Of a stretch of DNA of 64,000 nt, positions 39,989 through 48,884 are shown piece by piece. The position numbers were made by a program, and so were the translations under genes. The notes below the pieces were generated by a model. The model was not told the origin of the DNA. It saw only the letters and a program-made list of their open reading frames with translations, and searched no databases. Each line of letters starts with the position of its first letter. The stretch's first letter is position 1. The stretch comes from Flavobacterium sp. (GTDB taxonomy: Bacteria; Bacteroidota; Bacteroidia; Flavobacteriales; Flavobacteriaceae): NCBI RefSeq assembly GCF_039595935.1, contig NZ_JBCNKR010000004.1, positions 1,363,001 through 1,427,000 of the forward strand. Reading direction: 5' to 3'.

Positions 39989-40774
39989 ATGGAATATTTA
40001 GGGTATTTTGCTTCGATAATAATCGGGATTTCGCTGGGCTTAATTGGCGGCGGCGGCTCTATTCTGACTATTCCCATCTTGGTTTATCTTTTTAAAGTAA
40101 ATCCTGATCAGGCTACTTCTTATTCTTTATTTATTGTTGGATTAACCGCTTTATTCGGAAGTTACAGCCATTATAAAATGGGAAATTTAAAACTAAAATC
40201 GGCTTTATATTTTGCGATTCCGTCTGTGATTTCGATTTTGATAATTCGAGAAGTTATATTTCCTCAAATTGCTGCGACACTTTTTTCTATTGCCTCTTAC
40301 ACCGTTTCAAAAGATTTCCTGATAATGATTGTTTTTTCGGTATTAATGATAACCGCAGCAATTTCGATGATTAGAAAAAACCTTCCTGAAATGAAAAGTA
40401 CCGAAACCAATTATCCTCAATTAAGCTTTATTGGTTTTTTAGTGGGAATCGTAACGGGATTTCTCGGCGCGGGCGGCGGATTTTTGATCATTCCTGCACT
40501 TTTGTTTTTTGCCAAATTACCCATGAAACAAGCTGTTGGCACTTCATTATTGATTATTACAATTAATTCCTCAATAGGTTTTGGAGGTGATTTATATATT
40601 GGAACTCCAATCGATTATACTTTTTTATTAGGCGTTTCAGGAATGGCACTTTTAGGAATGCTTATCGGAAGCCAGCTTTCTAAAAAAATTGACGGTGCAA
40701 AATTAAAACCTCTTTTTGGCTGGTTTGTTCTCGTAATGGGATTTTATATCATTGCTAAAGAGGTTTTGTTTTAG
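39989..40774 (+). CDS. TauE/SafE family sulfite/organosulfonate exporter
   Basis: 261 residues, about 8 membrane helices. Two TauE/SafE repeats are visible: LGLIGGGGSILTIPILVYLFKVNPDQATSYSL and VTGFLGAGGGFLIIPALLFFAKLPMKQAVGTSLL. This family exports sulfite, thiosulfate or sulfonates. It lies close to sulfur-oxidation genes and the Crp/Fnr regulator, so export of a product of sulfide oxidation is the likely role. Confidence 0.88.
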   Translation: MEYLGYFASIIIGISLGLIGGGGSILTIPILVYLFKVNPDQATSYSLFIVGLTALFGSYSHYKMGNLKLKSALYFAIPSVISILIIREVIFPQIAATLFSIASYTVSKDFLIMIVFSVLMITAAISMIRKNLPEMKSTETNYPQLSFIGFLVGIVTGFLGAGGGFLIIPALLFFAKLPMKQAVGTSLLIITINSSIGFGGDLYIGTPIDYTFLLGVSGMALLGMLIGSQLSKKIDGAKLKPLFGWFVLVMGFYIIAKEVLF

Positions 40775-40872
40775 AAGTTATTTCTTCTCGCAGATTTTGC
40801 AGATAAGCAGATTTTTTTCTTTAAATAATTTTATAAAAGCTCCAGTTTAAAGCTAGTTTTCGCATTTTTGTC

Positions 40873-40964
40873 ATTTCGACGAAGGAGAAATCTGCGCAAG
40901 AAACTCTACAAAGATTGAACTCTCGTTGCGTAGCTTCTTGCGCAGATTTCTCCTTCGTCGAAAT
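40873..40964. repeat. Long inverted repeat element 1
   Basis: Perfect 30-bp arms (ATTTCGACGAAGGAGAAATC... at 40873-40902; complement at 40935-40964). The loop contains CAAAGATTGAA, also seen in the element at 46529, so both belong to one family. Non-coding. Confidence 0.85.
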
Positions 40965-41044
40965 TACACTGATTGTGGTTATTTTTGTTTAAAACTAAAG
41001 TTCCTTTCAATCTTTGTTTAAAACTTTGACAAAGATGAAACTAT

Positions 41045-41482
41045 TTAGATTGTTTTCTTTTCAGTAGTTTTAGCATTTGGTTTTCTGTAAAATAAATACC
41101 TTAAAACCAAAGTATAAAAAGTAAAAATTGAAGTTGTTAAAGTTCCAACAACAAACAAAAATTCTGTTTGTGAAAGAATAAAGAATTTATACGATGCGCC
41201 AGCTCCGTGCAGTAAAATAACAAGCGCAATAAAAATCGCCCATCTTGAGGAAAAAATAAAAGCTTTTTTGGCATTTTCTTGTCTTAGCTTTCTTTCCAGA
41301 CTTTCATTTGCCTGTTCGATTTCAAATCTTTTCAGTTCGATATATTCCGAATGACTTTTCGGATCATAAGGTCTCATTAAATGATCTTCTTTTTCAGCTT
41401 CTTTAGTTACATCTTTCGGAACATTAATAATATCGTTTCCTAAAGCGCTTTGCGGTAATTTTTCTGCTAAAGTTTTTTCCAT
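41045..41482 (-). CDS. Two-helix membrane protein, candidate toxin partner
   Basis: 145 residues. Cytosolic charged N-terminus (~1-77, with helix-rich YIELKRFEIEQANESLERKLRQE), then membrane segments near 81-103 and 105-130, and a basic tail (RKPNAKTTEKK). The start overlaps the stop of the Panacea gene by one base (TAATG), a tight coupling typical of toxin-antitoxin pairs. I do not recognise the family by sequence; the toxin role is inferred from the neighbour. Confidence 0.6.
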   Translation of the reverse strand: MEKTLAEKLPQSALGNDIINVPKDVTKEAEKEDHLMRPYDPKSHSEYIELKRFEIEQANESLERKLRQENAKKAFIFSSRWAIFIALVILLHGAGASYKFFILSQTEFLFVVGTLTTSIFTFYTLVLRYLFYRKPNAKTTEKKTI

Positions 41483-41931
41483 TAACTATTTAGTTTTTCC
41501 TTATAATATTCTCTAATTAAATCATTTCCGATAACAGCATCCTGCGTTCCGTCCCAAGTCTGCGACCACGGACTTCCCTCTTCATGCGTCAATGCCGAAA
41601 GCTGCAAGCCCGATAAACCTTTATAATTGTCCCAGATTTTTTTCAGGAATTCTTTGTCTTCCTCTTTCAGTGGAGTTTTTGCAGATAAATTCAGTAAAAA
41701 TGGATCAACAGGATCTTTACCAAACATTCGTATGGCGTAATACAAATCCGGAATAACCGCTCCATATTTCCATGCCTGGATTTCATTCTCAAAAAGCGGC
41801 TTTCCGGTGATTCCTAAATGCCATCCATCTGAAATATAAGTAAGCTTTAGCAACTTCATTGGGTCAAGTCCCATACCCTCTTCTTTTGCCAGCTCAATAA
41901 AATACTTCGCTATGTCAAAACAATTATACAT
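41482..41931 (-). CDS. Panacea-domain (DUF4065/SocA-like) protein, candidate antitoxin
   Basis: 149 residues. Diagnostic blocks of the Panacea domain: FDIAKYFIELAKEEG, MKLLKLTYISDGWHL, GKPLFENEIQAWKYGAVIPDLYYAI. The domain is an antitoxin module known to neutralise many unrelated toxins. It precedes the small membrane protein gene with a one-base overlap. DUF4065 proteins can also be phage or stress proteins, but the arrangement favours antitoxin. Confidence 0.85.
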   Translation of the reverse strand: MYNCFDIAKYFIELAKEEGMGLDPMKLLKLTYISDGWHLGITGKPLFENEIQAWKYGAVIPDLYYAIRMFGKDPVDPFLLNLSAKTPLKEEDKEFLKKIWDNYKGLSGLQLSALTHEEGSPWSQTWDGTQDAVIGNDLIREYYKEKLNS

Positions 41932-42035
41932 TTTCTAAAATTTTAATTATTTCTCTTCTAACAAAACTAATAAAAAGGAAATCAAATACACTATTTGTAA
42001 AAATTATATTAAGAAAATTTAATGTCTAATATTTG

Positions 42036-42119
42036 AGCGTTGTCTCCGGCCGGGATATCCACTATATCTTTTTCTTACTAAAGAAGCAAGAAAAAGGATA
42101 CCGCTCCTATCCCTAACGC
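42036..42119. repeat. Structured GC-rich inverted element
   Basis: Outer pair GCGTT...GGGAT with ATCCC...AACGC and inner pair ATCTTTTTCTT with AAGAAAAAGGAT, folding into one long interrupted hairpin. Locally GC-rich against AT-rich flanks. Between the ATPase-TOPRIM and Panacea genes; no coding potential. Confidence 0.65.
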
Positions 42120-42132
42120 AGAATTTAATCAC

Positions 42133-43908
42133 TCAAATAATTTTTTTTATTGTATCGAAAATTGATTTTGGAGTAAAATCTGGAAAATCATTTATAATTT
42201 TTTGAATAACGTCTTTTTTGAGCATATCTTCTCTATTGTAACTTCTTAAAAAGGGATATTTCTCTTTATACAAACTTTCAAGAGCATGCCCTTGGAAAAG
42301 ATTAAATTCAAAAGAAACCTTTAATTTCCAATCATTATGCAAATCATAATCTTGTTTATTATCAGAATTCAAACCTAAATCGTTTAAAACTTTATCTATA
42401 ATCATTTGTGCTTCTTCTTCTTTCAAACTTCCAATTTCAGAATACTTAGAAATCCTATCTATTCCAAAGTCGGTAATTTGTTTTTTTGTTTCTCTAATAA
42501 AAAGCAGTCCCATCATCAATGGGTCTAAAAGATAATTCTCAATCGAATATCGTTCATTTTCTCCTAAAACAATTATTCTATCTCTACTTTCATTAGCTGT
42601 GTCCCAATCTATAATTCCATAAATTAATTCATTCCCATTTTCGTACAAATTATTAACTACAGCAATTACATCTGTACAATTTGACCCTTCTGAAGTTCTT
42701 GCCGCTAAATAAATAGGATCTGAATTTATTTTATCTGTTCGTAAAAGAATGTTTGTGAGAAACTCATAATAAACTACATCATATTTACTTTCAACAAAAA
42801 CTTGTCTTCTTTTATCATTAGATATTTTTAAAAAAGGAATATCACTAGATAATAGTTCGATTGCTTTCTGCACTGATATCTTATGAGGCACAGGGTTACC
42901 TCGTTCTATCTGATATATTGAAATACCTTCTGATGAAATTACTGTAGTTGGTGAATGAGTTGTTATAACAGCAGGTATACCACTAATATCAACAATATTA
43001 TTATTCAATATTTGAACCATTTTTCGAGACATTGATGGATGCAAAGCAGCATCAGGTTCGTCTATTAATAAAAAATCAGGTTTATTATCAACTCCATTAG
43101 AGTTATAAATAGCTAACGCCAAAGACATCAAAACTTTTTCCCCAGTGGACAAATCTTGAGAAGAAATTTCTGTTCCATTTTGTCTATCAATAAGCCTAAA
43201 ATTAAAGTTTAAATCTGCTCTGCTACCTAAAGGAGAATTTACAGTGTATGGAACATTTATTTCATCAAGTATAGTATTTACAAAATCCCATGGAGGAACT
43301 CCATTTTTTTTTATAAATTCCTCTTCAGATAAAATTTCAGATGTAGTAGGGAGGTCTTGCGACAAATAATATTTATTCACATTATTTTCTTCAAATAATC
43401 TATGATAATTTTTAAAAATTAAAGCAAACTGAGCTGTAAAAAAATCATTTTCAGCCATAATCGATACATCGAAATTATTAAAAACATCTTCTTCGGTTAT
43501 CTCTTCAATTTTTTTTCCAATTTTTGGAATAACTTTTATAGCAATTTTGTTAAAGCTAGGATCACCTGAATAAATCATCAAATTAGCCTGATTTAATGCC
43601 GCATTAGCACTCTTTGTTCTAATAACTGCACTCTTAAACTGATCGTAAAAACCTTTTATCCAACTTATTATATTAGAAGGATTACATTCCTCTTGAATTT
43701 GGGAATTTAAACCATTAAATGGAATATATCTTATATTTAAAACTTTATTTCCATCAATATATACTTCGCTAAATTCATTATTAGAAATAGCTTCCAATAA
43801 ATGGGTTTTACCACTACCATTTAAGCCTGTTAAAACTGAAAAATCAGGAAGTTCAAATTCACAAACATCTATTGATTTGTATTTTTTTTTTATTATAATT
43901 TTTATCAT
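42133..43908 (-). CDS. Fused ATPase-TOPRIM protein (OLD/PARIS-like)
   Basis: 591 residues. An ABC-type ATPase: Walker A GLNGSGKT at 28-35, signature LSTGEKVLMSLAL near 253, Walker B LLIDEPDAALHP near 282 and switch His in TTHSP near 318. The C-terminal ~220 residues look like a DUF4435/OLD TOPRIM domain: FVESKYD (Glu near 371), GIIDWDTAN (DxD near 433) and SIENYLLDPL (near 458). OLD nucleases and the PARIS anti-phage system (AriA plus AriB) have these parts. Its base use is more AT-rich than its neighbours. Defence is the best guess. Confidence 0.78.
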   Translation of the reverse strand: MIKIIIKKKYKSIDVCEFELPDFSVLTGLNGSGKTHLLEAISNNEFSEVYIDGNKVLNIRYIPFNGLNSQIQEECNPSNIISWIKGFYDQFKSAVIRTKSANAALNQANLMIYSGDPSFNKIAIKVIPKIGKKIEEITEEDVFNNFDVSIMAENDFFTAQFALIFKNYHRLFEENNVNKYYLSQDLPTTSEILSEEEFIKKNGVPPWDFVNTILDEINVPYTVNSPLGSRADLNFNFRLIDRQNGTEISSQDLSTGEKVLMSLALAIYNSNGVDNKPDFLLIDEPDAALHPSMSRKMVQILNNNIVDISGIPAVITTHSPTTVISSEGISIYQIERGNPVPHKISVQKAIELLSSDIPFLKISNDKRRQVFVESKYDVVYYEFLTNILLRTDKINSDPIYLAARTSEGSNCTDVIAVVNNLYENGNELIYGIIDWDTANESRDRIIVLGENERYSIENYLLDPLMMGLLFIRETKKQITDFGIDRISKYSEIGSLKEEEAQMIIDKVLNDLGLNSDNKQDYDLHNDWKLKVSFEFNLFQGHALESLYKEKYPFLRSYNREDMLKKDVIQKIINDFPDFTPKSIFDTIKKII

Positions 43909-43957
43909 ATTTGGTATATCGTTTTACAAATAAATAATATTTTTCATAACTAAAACA

Positions 43958-45034
43958 TCAATGCTCCCCATACCCAACATCATCCATTTTTCCACTAAAA
44001 ACACGATATTGAATAATAAAATAAATAATTACCAGAAACAAAGCCACAAAAAACCAGCTTAATCCCGCATTCAATCCGTATTCGTGAGCGGCTGTGTTGT
44101 AAATCGTTAATGATGGATTTACTTTATTGGTTGAAGGCAGAACATTCGGGAAAATCGAAACGGCGGTTGAAGCGAATCCGCCCACTAAAAAGAAAGTCGA
44201 AAACATGAATCCGTAACCGTCTTTTTGAAACGAACGAACTTTAAACAATCCCAAAATTCCAACAAAAGTTAAAAGCGGGAAAAACCAAAGAATTGGATTT
44301 TCAACGAAATTATGAAATGGTTTTGGTTCGATAAAATGCCAAACCTGCAACGAAATACAAACTAAAACCAGCAAAACAATATTCAGCACAAAAACCACAT
44401 TTTTAAGTTTTGGGTTTAAAGATGAATTCGTTTTATAAATAATCCAGTTCGCGCCGTGAATTGTTAATGCAACAACACTTACAATTCCCAGAAAAAGTGT
44501 AAACCAGTCAATAATTCCCAATTCATTTGCCTGCGGACTAAAAGTTGGATTCCACAAAGGCAGAAAGAAATAATGTGCTTCTTGTGTCGAAACGCCGTTT
44601 TGAACCATTCCGAGATTTACGCCGCGAACAATATTTCCTAAAGCAATTCCGAAGAAAAGTGCCAAAAGTAAACTCGCAATTCCGAAAGCTTTATCCCAAA
44701 TCGTTTCCCACATGTGATTATGAATCTGTCCGCGCATTTCCAATCCGATTGCACGGAAAATCAAAAGCCATAAAATCATAATCAACGGTAGATAAAATCC
44801 GCTGAAAGATGACGCATATAAAGTTGGAAAAGCAAAAAACAAAACACCGCCGGCGGCAATAAGCCAAACCTCATTGGCATCCCAAAACGGACCAATTGAG
44901 TTTGTAATTACTTTTTTATCTCTTTCTGTATCGGCAAAAAACAAATGAATAATTCCTGCACCAAAATCATAACCGTCTAAAACCAGATAAACGGCCAGAA
45001 TTCCCATTAAAACTACGTACCAAAAAAACTCCAT
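43958..45034 (-). CDS. cydB: Cytochrome bd ubiquinol oxidase subunit II
   Basis: 358 residues, about 8-9 membrane helices. GYDFGAGIIHLFFADTERDKKVI and NSIGPFWDANEVWLIAAGGVLFFAFP are CydB hallmarks. It is the second subunit of the quinol oxidase that reduces oxygen to water and resists sulfide. It starts 2 bp after the cydA stop. Confidence 0.95.
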   Translation of the reverse strand: MEFFWYVVLMGILAVYLVLDGYDFGAGIIHLFFADTERDKKVITNSIGPFWDANEVWLIAAGGVLFFAFPTLYASSFSGFYLPLIMILWLLIFRAIGLEMRGQIHNHMWETIWDKAFGIASLLLALFFGIALGNIVRGVNLGMVQNGVSTQEAHYFFLPLWNPTFSPQANELGIIDWFTLFLGIVSVVALTIHGANWIIYKTNSSLNPKLKNVVFVLNIVLLVLVCISLQVWHFIEPKPFHNFVENPILWFFPLLTFVGILGLFKVRSFQKDGYGFMFSTFFLVGGFASTAVSIFPNVLPSTNKVNPSLTIYNTAAHEYGLNAGLSWFFVALFLVIIYFIIQYRVFSGKMDDVGYGEH

Positions 45035-45036
45035 AC

Positions 45037-46383
45037 TTATATTTTTTCTGTTGAAAGTTCCACATGATGAGGCCCTTTATTGATAATTTTTCCAATCAAA
45101 AGTAAAAACAACATTCCTAGTAAAAGGTATAAACCAATAAAACCAAGTAATGTAAACAAGGTATTTCCGGATGAAACTGTAGGCGATGCACCGGATGCGG
45201 TTCGCAGTAAATTATAAACCAGCCATGGCTGTCTTCCTAATTCTGCCGTATACCAGCCTGTTGTATTAGCAATGTACGGAAATGGCATCATGAACATAAG
45301 CGACCATAAAATCCATTTGGTTTGAAATAATTTCCCTCTTATTAATTGAAAAAGCGAAAGAACCATTAAACCGATAAAAACAGTTCCGAGACCCACCATA
45401 ATATGATACGCATAATACAATCCCGAAATATTGGTTGGATGCAAATCTTCTTCAAACTGATCTAAACCTTTAATTTCCTGATCCCAGTTTCCGTAAGTCA
45501 GAAAACTTAAAATATTTGGAACTGCAATTTTATTATCGAGTTTTTTGTCTTTTACATCGGGCTGACCAATTAAAACAATTTCAGAACCTCTTTTTTCGGT
45601 ATGAAAAATTCCTTCCATTCCGGCGAAAGTTACGGGTTGGTATTTCACAACATTTTTTGCCAGTAAATCTCCAGTAGGAACTGCAACAACAATACTCGAA
45701 ATCAATCCGAAAACAACTCCTGTTTTCAAGAACAATTTCCCAAAAGAAACATTCTTTTTACTCAAAATATAAAAAGCTCCAATTCCGGCCACAACAAAAG
45801 AACTTGTTACAAGTGATGCAGCCTGGTTGTGCAGATAAGAAGGCCAAAGCCAAGGATTTAGAAATAAAGCCTGAAAATTATTCAGAACAAATTTTCCGTT
45901 TTCAAGGATTTCATAACCCACCGGATTCTGCATCCAGGAATGTGTGGCAATGATTAAAAATCCGCTGGCCCAGGAACCAATCATAATTAATAATCCGGTT
46001 ACAAAATGCCATTTATGTCCGAGAAGTTTTTCTCCAAACAAAAACAAACCTAAAAACGACGATTCAAGAAAAAACGAAAACATTCCTTCCATTGCAAGCG
46101 TTTGTCCAATGATTCCGCCTGTTAACTCGGAGAATTTTGCCCAATTAGTTCCAAACTGAAATTCCATCGGAATTCCGGTTACAACGCCCATTGCAAAATT
46201 GAGAGCGAAGATTTTCATCCAGAAATGGGTAGCGTGATTGTATTGTTCGTTTTTAGTTTTTAGATATTTCCACTTGAAGTAAACAATAATGAGCGAAAGA
46301 CCCATTGTAAGCTGTGGAAAAAGATAATGAAAAGTAATCGTGAAAGCGAATTGCATTCGATCATAAAAGAGCATTTCTTCCAT
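45037..46383 (-). CDS. cydA: Cytochrome bd ubiquinol oxidase subunit I
   Basis: 448 residues from the ATG at 46383 (MEEMLFYDRMQFAFTITFHYLFPQLTMG); the upstream 13 codons of the open frame are not typical. FHYLFPQL has the N-terminal haem-ligand histidine; GWYTAELGRQPW is the CydA signature. It is shorter than the Escherichia coli protein because the quinol (Q) loop is short, as in the CIO-type. Bd oxidase is less sensitive to sulfide than haem-copper oxidases, which would suit its position inside a sulfur gene region. Confidence 0.95.
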   Translation of the reverse strand: MEEMLFYDRMQFAFTITFHYLFPQLTMGLSLIIVYFKWKYLKTKNEQYNHATHFWMKIFALNFAMGVVTGIPMEFQFGTNWAKFSELTGGIIGQTLAMEGMFSFFLESSFLGLFLFGEKLLGHKWHFVTGLLIMIGSWASGFLIIATHSWMQNPVGYEILENGKFVLNNFQALFLNPWLWPSYLHNQAASLVTSSFVVAGIGAFYILSKKNVSFGKLFLKTGVVFGLISSIVVAVPTGDLLAKNVVKYQPVTFAGMEGIFHTEKRGSEIVLIGQPDVKDKKLDNKIAVPNILSFLTYGNWDQEIKGLDQFEEDLHPTNISGLYYAYHIMVGLGTVFIGLMVLSLFQLIRGKLFQTKWILWSLMFMMPFPYIANTTGWYTAELGRQPWLVYNLLRTASGASPTVSSGNTLFTLLGFIGLYLLLGMLFLLLIGKIINKGPHHVELSTEKI

Positions 46384-47377: not shown

Positions 47378-47437
47378 CAGAAATCAAATTTCTGTAACAT
47401 AAGTCACCTATTTTAAAAGAAAACAGAGTTATCTTTG
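47378..47437 (+). promoter_or_regulatory. Promoter and candidate Crp/Fnr site of the CstB-like gene
   Basis: -7 box TATCTTTG at 47430-47437, 28 bp before the ATG. Upstream are CAGAAATCAAATTTCTG (47378-47394, 7-bp arms) and GTAACATAAGTCAC (47394-47407), an imperfect GTRAC-N4-GTYAC dyad, well placed for an activator of the Crp/Fnr type. No clear TTG -33 box. Confidence 0.5.
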
Positions 47438-47464
47438 TATTCCCATTATTTTTCAAATTATACC

Positions 47465-48884
47465 ATGAAAATAGAACAAATTTACACCGGATGCCTCGCA
47501 CAAGGTGCATACTATATAACTTCTAACGGAGAAGCGAGCAATTATTGACCCGTTAAGAGAAATTCAGCCGTATTTAGATCGTTTAGAACGTGATAACGTT
47601 AAACTGAAATACATTTTTGAAACGCATTTTCACGCCGATTTTGTTTCAGGACATATCGATTTAAGCAAAGAAACGCAAGCTCCAATTGTTTACGGGCCAA
47701 ATGCTGCCTGCGAATTTGACTGCATTTCTGCAAAAGACGGACAGGAATTCAAAATTGGAGATGTAACGATAAAAGCTTTACATACTCCGGGTCATACAAT
47801 GGAAAGCACCACTTATTTATTGATTGACAAAGACGGAAAAGATCATGCTATTTTCTCTGGAGACACTTTATTTATTGGCGATGTCGGACGTCCTGATTTG
47901 GCTCAAAAAGCTGCCGGAATGACTCAGGATCAATTAGCCGGAATTTTATTTCATTCCTTAAGAGATAAAATTATGACTTTAGCCGATGACGTAATTGTTT
48001 ATCCGGCGCACGGTGCCGGAAGTGCCTGCGGAAAAAACATGAGTAAAGAAACCGTTTCGACTATCGGAAATCAAAAAGCGACCAATTATGCGTTACGCGC
48101 TAATATGACCGAAGCTGAATTTATTAAAGAAGTTACCGATGGTTTACTGCCTCCTCCAGCCTATTTCAGCATGAACGTTGCCATGAATAAAAAGGGCTAC
48201 GAAAGCTTTGAAACCGTTTTGCATAACGGAATGAAAGAAATTAAAGCCGAAGAATTTGAGGCTGTTGCCGAAGAAACCGGAGCTTTAATTTTAGATACAC
48301 GAAAAAGTGGTGATTTTGCCAAAGGATTTATTCCACAATCTATTAATATTGGGATCAATGGTGATTTTGCGCCGTGGGTTGGAACTTTGATTGGAAATGT
48401 AAAACAACCTATTATATTAGTGACAGAATTGGGTCTTGAAGAAGAAACTGTTACGCGTTTAAGCCGTGTTGGTTTTGATACCATTATTGGTCATCTTGAA
48501 GGCGGTTTTGAAGCTTGGGAAAAAGCTGGTTTTGAAATTGATACCGTAAACCGAATTTCGGCAGAACAATTTGCTTCTAAGTTCAACATCAAAGAAGATA
48601 AAGTTATCGATGTTCGTAAAGAAACCGAATACGAAGCTGAACATATTGAAGATGCTTACAGCAAACCTCTTGCTTATATTAATGACTGGGTAAAAGATAT
48701 TAACCCGAATGAACATTTTTTTCTGCATTGTGCCGGCGGTTACCGCAGTATGATCGCAGCTTCGATTTTACAAGCTCGTGGTTTCAGAAATTTTAGCGAA
48801 ATTGACGGTGGTTTTGGAGCCATCACAAAAACTGAAATTCCAAAATCAGATTTCGTTTGTCAGAGTAAGGTTTTAAAAGCATAA
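47465..48884 (+). pseudogene. CstB-like persulfide dioxygenase-rhodanese fusion, frameshifted
   Basis: From the ATG at 47465 (MKIEQIYTGCLAQG) the frame stops at TGA 47546-47548, because of one extra base at about 47537 (GAAGCG-A-GCAATT). Reading past it gives the expected IIDPLREIQPYL and an open frame to 48884, 472 residues in all. The repaired protein is a metallo-beta-lactamase domain (metal motif THFHADFVSGH, HTPGHT, FSGDTLF), a central rhodanese-like domain without the active Cys, and a C-terminal rhodanese with HCAGGYRS. This resembles CstB, which oxidises persulfide to thiosulfate. An internal start near 47799 would lack the metal-binding part. Confidence 0.8.

Follow-up and report, generated by a model that had tools for sequence, protein, structure and literature searches.

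It is proposed that the gene at 42133-43908 on the reverse strand of the window (the whole 64,000-nucleotide stretch of DNA analysed here) encodes a stand-alone protein for phage defence that belongs to the OLD-superfamily ABC-ATPase/TOPRIM type and has a TOPRIM domain like that of AriB; we put the probability of this reading at roughly 0.6. The gene is a single open reading frame with exactly these limits in the ORF list, and from Pfam matches and a structural model its 591-amino-acid product is predicted to be a single-chain ABC-ATPase/TOPRIM-like nuclease. Its domains, its conserved residues, its optional presence and a protein change faster than that of the neighbouring genes are direct observations. 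A preliminary description of this DNA had reported the 591-residue frame, its motifs, its neighbours and an inserted block, all of which were borne out; its interpretation held for the architecture, the optional nature of the gene and the adjoining toxin-antitoxin candidate, but lost ground on PARIS membership, on the rarity of the fused form and on a single island unit.

The ATPase part is recognized by Pfam as AAA_21 (64.4 bits, cut-off 27) and AAA_15 (47.4 bits, cut-off 32.1), and the C-terminal part has no Pfam match. Residues 28-35 (GLNGSGKT; 43804-43827, reverse strand) form what we take to be the Walker A motif, and residues 253-319 (42952-43152, reverse strand) presumably carry the ABC signature (L253-S-T-G-E257), a Walker B ending in D283-E284 and, after it, the His switch H318; the C-terminal motif residues are E373, D434-x-D436 and E457-N458. 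When the window protein is aligned with 30 relatives from viral contigs at identities down to 22%, G28, N30, G31, G33, K34, S254, G256, E257, D283, E284 and H318 are invariant in the ATPase part, as are E373, D434, D436 and P463 in the C-terminal part (n = 31). The 30 relatives come from at least 52 viral loci, two partial sequences (L057 and L065) and a series of short matches (L066-L085) having been dropped. A second alignment holds 12 of 15 proteins, the window protein included (L026, split into two frames, and the weak L032 and L033 were dropped); E373, D434, D436 and E457 are invariant in it and N458 is kept in at least 90%. Among 39 aligned C-terminal domains, E457 and N458 each reach at least 90%. 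Judged from these columns, the conservation exceeds chance, and the Walker A and B, signature, His-switch, Glu, DWD and EN motifs named in the preliminary description are present, with the conservation just given.

The TOPRIM-like domain is placed at residues 366-470 (42499-42813, reverse strand). By the alignments and by hhalign, E373 (42790-42792) is aligned with the TOPRIM glutamate of DUF4435 proteins, D434-W-D436 (42601-42609) is the TOPRIM DxD motif and E457-N458 (42535-42540) is aligned with the EN of DUF4435 proteins, all on the reverse strand. A profile of the 39 C-terminal domains, which omits L060, L063 and L064 since their C-terminal part resembled another TOPRIM type, was compared by hhalign with a profile of six DUF4435 proteins; the probability was 94.1% (pairwise E 1.2e-7), and the E, DxD and YSIEN motifs were aligned with each other. 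Each of these six proteins adjoins an ATPase gene in a genome of the same order; they represent six of nine DUF4435 loci, L143 (a stop), L149 (fused) and L151 (short) having been dropped. Against eleven OLD TOPRIM domains, taken from 13 OLD loci, the C-terminal profile reached 18.2% (E 1.3e-3) with the E and DxD in register, and the DUF4435 profile itself scored much the same against OLD (15.9%). Two unrelated proteins used as controls gave 0.2% and 1.6% from shallow profiles (3 and 2 near-identical rows). Matches to the Pfam DUF4435 model were found for 17 of the 39 domains at E<=1, the best relative having an E of 8.5e-9 and the relatives L034, L031 and L049 scoring 23.2, 22.0 and 20.7 bits against a cut-off of 27; L059 has no DUF4435 match at E<=0.01, and the window protein has none either. 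The Pfam OLD-TOPRIM model (PF20469) does not match the window protein, and it matches a single one of the 39 family domains, at E 0.057.

The structure predicted from the alignment with 30 relatives has a mean pLDDT of 87.3 and a pTM of 0.55 (pLDDT only 35.5 from the single sequence). It contains a strand at 369-372, a helix at 375-392, a strand at 399-402, a helix at 411-423 and strands at 429-433 and 445-447, a TOPRIM-like alternation in which E373 follows the first strand and D434 and D436 the third, at strand ends. When the C-terminal alignment was run against PDB profiles, two chance-level matches and nothing meaningful came up. Fold searches with the whole model returned mostly ATPase heads (Z about 15 to those of SMC3 and PtuA), which filled the lists so that the TOPRIM was not matched alone to a solved TOPRIM; the TOPRIM assignment therefore rests on the motifs, the predicted strand order and the profile comparison. 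Pfam, the model and hhalign together support the view that one chain combines an ABC-ATPase with a DUF4435/OLD-type TOPRIM-like domain, as the preliminary description had it. The structure prediction and profile comparison of the C-terminal part that it called for gave a TOPRIM-like strand order and the 94.1% match to DUF4435, and the finding that it said would tell against it, a C-terminal domain lacking a TOPRIM fold, was not made; the domain looks like a TOPRIM.

This combination of an AAA_15/AAA_21-type ABC-ATPase with a DUF4435-like TOPRIM bearing E, DxD and EN is shared with PARIS. According to Rousset et al. 2022 (PMC9122126), PARIS is detected as AAA_15 or AAA_21 together with DUF4435, in two genes or in one fusion; single-gene fusions are already reported there, which weakens the earlier impression that the fused form is unusual, and the score threshold for the AAA_21+DUF4435 fusion profile is only 20 bits. 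The window protein passes the AAA_15 and AAA_21 cut-offs and is a single fusion ORF, but it misses the DUF4435 cut-off. We consider it doubtful that the protein is a true fused PARIS (AriAB), whose ATPase would detect an anti-restriction protein (Ocr, for example) and whose TOPRIM would cut tRNA-Lys along with a few further tRNAs. In favour of this reading, AriA (70.9 bits) and the AriAB model PDLC02981 (61.0 bits) are among the best PADLOC models for the window protein, all 12 proteins of the second alignment, the window protein included, match PDLC02981 (best E 5.2e-34; 80-109 bits for the relatives L030, L034 and L049), and the TOPRIM profile aligns best with DUF4435. However, the PDLC02981 match is partial, covering residues 231-467 of the protein and positions 291-528 of the 694 in the model, and other ATPase families score similarly (mad3 68.7 bits, ATPase-Toprim_I-B 63.2 bits). 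A search of 295 genomes of the class with PDLC02981 gave 90 bits at best (the window gene scored 54.1 bits), with no protein among them that clearly defines the model. L149, a fused protein of the same genus, has a DUF4435 match of 41.7 bits and scores 356 bits with another AriAB model, PDLC02982; this model is absent from the best 25 PADLOC models of the window protein, indicating that the latter is not of the L149 type. Since L149 itself has just 51 bits to PDLC02981, it does not calibrate that model.

The ATPase-domain tree (60 rows) also leans against fused PARIS. The family, that is 39 rows and 3 related viral rows, is parted at an SH-aLRT of 100 from seven two-gene AriA proteins, ten of the eleven OLD proteins and L149; the tree comes from a quick search and has long branches, and its AriA rows are from the order and do not include E. 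coli AriA. A further difference lies in the way of working. Two-gene PARIS, as described in PMC11455837 and PMC12409363, keeps AriB bound to AriA until AriA detects phage proteins, Ocr among them, whereupon the freed AriB dimerises and then cuts tRNA; a single chain could not simply release its effector in this manner unless it were cleaved. Taken together, membership in PARIS is unproven from the sequence comparisons: the PARIS type named in the preliminary description stands as far as the ATPase/TOPRIM architecture goes and is weakened by the missing DUF4435 match, the partial AriAB match and the position of the ATPase outside the AriA rows. The protein is best called, on present comparisons, a member of a lineage of single-chain ATPase-TOPRIM proteins of PARIS/OLD-like architecture that lies apart, in this quick tree, from the sampled AriA and OLD proteins and from L149, and the family may yet turn out to be an AAA_21-type fused PARIS.

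The second system to be considered is OLD. A review (PMC10568477) gives as the Class 1 OLD organisation a stand-alone gene whose product unites ATPase and TOPRIM, and leaves it undecided whether the fused forms make up a class of their own or differ in their working from Class 1 OLD; a published OLD tree (PMC12796447) names clades up to U11, one of which was made class 5. The window protein resembles Class 1 OLD (P2 Old, TsOLD) in being encoded by one gene with an N-terminal ATPase and a C-terminal TOPRIM-like domain, and its relatives share no common partner in their neighbourhoods. We judge it unlikely that the protein, instead of being a tRNase, is an OLD-like DNA nuclease of Class 1 directed against phage DNA or damaged DNA. 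Besides the gene layout, long Foldseek alignments speak for it: those with GajA and the retron Eco8 effector extend over 650-710 columns, gaps counted, and those with viral ATP-dependent endonucleases over more than 700 columns; against it stand the low TM-scores to these chains (0.18-0.25), the missing Pfam OLD-TOPRIM match and an OLD TOPRIM profile match far below that to DUF4435. Gabija GajA and the effectors of retron type I-B (Eco8-type) have the same domain order, and the ATPase-Toprim_I-B model and the Foldseek alignments point the same way; however, the genes adjoining the window gene are by Pfam cydB and a Panacea gene, and not the GajB helicase or a reverse transcriptase. HEC-04/IbfA, described in PMC12111858 as joining an ATPase and a TOPRIM in one chain and as having protected against phage in tests, is likened here by that description; it differs in that none of the four plasmid records matching the window protein (E<=1e-5) is enterobacterial. 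The same genome also encodes an OLD protein (L160; G000:C6:2970082-2970273) that scores 820 bits with the GajA (Gabija) model.

Within the genus the gene is optional. A scan of 398 genomes, the window's own included, gave 11 with a match at E<=1e-8, nine of them at E<1e-40; among the ten other matching genomes only one, G175, has a same-site orthologue (72% identity), and a search for related loci in genome contigs gave one match, to the ATPase part only. The relative in genome G284 (L026:6245-8148, reverse strand) is split into two frames and may therefore be a decayed copy. In the window the gene occupies a variable cargo site at 40775-43957 between a permease gene (39989-40774) and cydB (43958-45034); the site corresponds to loci L101 and L123-L142 elsewhere. 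In 21 of 21 genomes compared, namely G118, G160 and the 19 genomes with the strongest cydB matches once the own genome, G118 and G175 are set aside, both flanks are kept and the gene content between them varies; in none of the 21 does an ATPase-TOPRIM gene lie between cydB and the permease gene. G201, G222, G114 and weaker ones among the 50 genomes with a cydB match were left out of this comparison. In G118, cydB and the Panacea/membrane pair are both retained and enclose 628 bases that differ from the window and contain a 124-aa frame; this genome aligns to the window on both sides of about 42046-43951, so the term "inserted block" is fair for that stretch. The gene thus appears, from these comparisons, to be optional cargo at a variable chromosomal site; the alternative that it is a conserved housekeeping gene, which the preliminary description had named as a ground for giving up its reading, does not agree with strong matches in nine of 398 genomes and none at the site in 21. 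Six cargo proteins from the site were tested, giving an Abi_2-like (20.8 bits, cut-off 25.6), a barstar-like, a DUF1444 and an HTH protein and two with no match; most of the cargo in other genomes is accordingly not recognisable as known defence, which counts against the defence reading.

The cydB gene is on the same strand and ends 49 bases ahead of the ATPase-TOPRIM gene, and the Panacea gene lies 201 bases beyond it. Over 42001-44000 the G+C content is 27.6-28.7%, lower than the 33-37% measured in the four adjoining 1-kb segments (40001-42000 and 44001-46000). Between the ATPase and Panacea genes there is a 12-base inverted repeat (92% complementary, 5-base loop; 42068-42096) in a stretch that varies among the window, G175 and G118; a promoter scan was not informative (29 sites, 24.7 expected). 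The wider flanks hold genes that we take to encode a rhodanese, a TauE/SafE-like permease, an aldehyde dehydrogenase and a Crp-type regulator. At 47435-48884 (forward strand) there is presumably a metallo-hydrolase/rhodanese-like gene, which is 471 aa long in G175 and has its 5' part in another frame here, a frame break that would reflect either an assembly error or decay. The location among ordinary metabolism genes would suit a cellular, non-defence OLD-type enzyme, and PMC12796447 reports such an ATPase, the archaeal Cran1, with a role in cell-cycle progression; this explanation is very improbable given the nine strong matches in 398 genomes, the gene's absence from the same site in 21 of 21 further genomes and the relatives on phage-like contigs.

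The neighbouring genes at 41482-41931 and 41045-41482 (both reverse strand), which overlap by one base, encode a candidate Panacea (SocA-like) antitoxin of 149 aa (Pfam PF13274, E 1.4e-21), an independent neighbour, and a candidate membrane toxin of 145 aa with two hydrophobic segments. In each of 15 genus Panacea loci inspected out of 22 matches (L086-L100, the own locus included), the gene directly downstream encodes a protein of just 117-170 aa that has two hydrophobic segments; 11 of the 15 partners show no similarity to the 145-aa protein of the window. Published work describes PanT toxins that act on membranes and that Panacea antitoxins neutralise (PMC8832971), and the PanAT arrangement of a Panacea-domain gene with an adjoining small toxin-like gene is present here. 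The pair is, by these sequence features, a good toxin-antitoxin candidate, as previously suspected, and seems to be cargo separate from the ATPase-TOPRIM gene. A single defence unit of the ATPase-TOPRIM and this pair is highly improbable: the three genes share their direction and occur together in the own genome and G175, but G118 carries the pair (93-95% identity) with no ATPase gene, most of the 15 inspected loci lack one too, of 199 genus genomes (a set that did not include all genomes of the 398-genome ATPase list) 21 carry a Panacea relative, accompanied by an ATPase match only in the own genome, in G175 and in G196, where the genes are far apart, and a Panacea match is present in just one, from G175, of 14 stretches surrounding ATPase relatives, so that the island unit of the preliminary description loses support.

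Comparison with G175 reveals how the gene changes. The amino-acid identity between the two genomes is 71.6% for the ATPase-TOPRIM protein, versus 95-98% for cydA, cydB, the permease, the rhodanese and the aldehyde dehydrogenase; dN is 0.196, versus 0.008-0.064 in seven other genes nearby, and dS (0.835) lies inside the 0.21-0.86 range of the same seven genes, which does not suggest a recent replacement. By region, identity is 87% over residues 351-470, 67% over 471-591 and 58% over 61-235; the last, in the middle of the ATPase part (43204-43728, reverse strand), diverges fastest and is a candidate sensor or oligomerisation region. The pattern, seen in one orthologue pair, would fit a conserved catalytic part combined with a fast-changing sensing part; relaxed constraint would give the same dN difference in this pair.

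Relatives are also found in viral contigs and on plasmids. At least 52 loci were recovered from the viral contigs, at least 31 of which (L034-L064) have matches spanning more than 270 residues. The neighbours were viewed at ten viral loci, and ten phage-like neighbours, picked by eye from eight loci, were tested with PHROGs; these include spanins near L035 and L037, endolysins near L035, L041 and L046, a tail protein near L040, a terminase near L048, DNA methyltransferases near L034 and L038 and one unknown near L034. None of 50,697 phage records matches the window protein at E<=1e-5, and this counts against the defence reading. One of the plasmid relatives follows type I restriction genes; another (L023, on Caballeronia plasmid pNK84) has a very large TIR-domain gene on either side, and one small gene also lies in the interval. 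A literature search, from whose scope subscription papers mostly fell out, found no paper on this ATPase-TOPRIM family.

Most likely, this candidate defence protein is an abortive-infection ATPase-nuclease that is switched on within one chain. The ATPase would dimerise or oligomerise using its head together with the variable region 61-235, and would keep the TOPRIM nuclease inactive; it may respond to a product of the phage or to an altered nucleotide state, upon which the TOPRIM would be activated in place. Metal ions coordinated by E373, D434 and D436 would then enable the TOPRIM to cut nucleic acid, and growth and phage multiplication would be stopped. Because the TOPRIM is in the same chain as the ATPase it cannot simply leave, so that either the linker would be cut or TOPRIM domains would pair inside the oligomer. 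As the TOPRIM is nearer to DUF4435 than to OLD, tRNA or another RNA is presumably a slightly likelier substrate than DNA.

Members of the family occur in this genus, on viral contigs and on plasmids from proteobacteria and a cyanobacterium. That it is a class of its own among OLD-superfamily defence proteins, with an AriB-like, RNA-cutting TOPRIM switched on inside an intact oligomer, is put forward tentatively, as a possibility against which we would still lean. The known PARIS mechanism needs the toxin part to leave the ATPase, which single-chain relatives cannot simply do; if the proposal were true, the effector release and dimerisation of two-gene PARIS would not be needed. The window gene, its same-site orthologue that is 28% different and a related genome lacking the gene form a natural set for tests of sensing and switching, and the cydB/permease site is worth scanning across the genus for small cargo.
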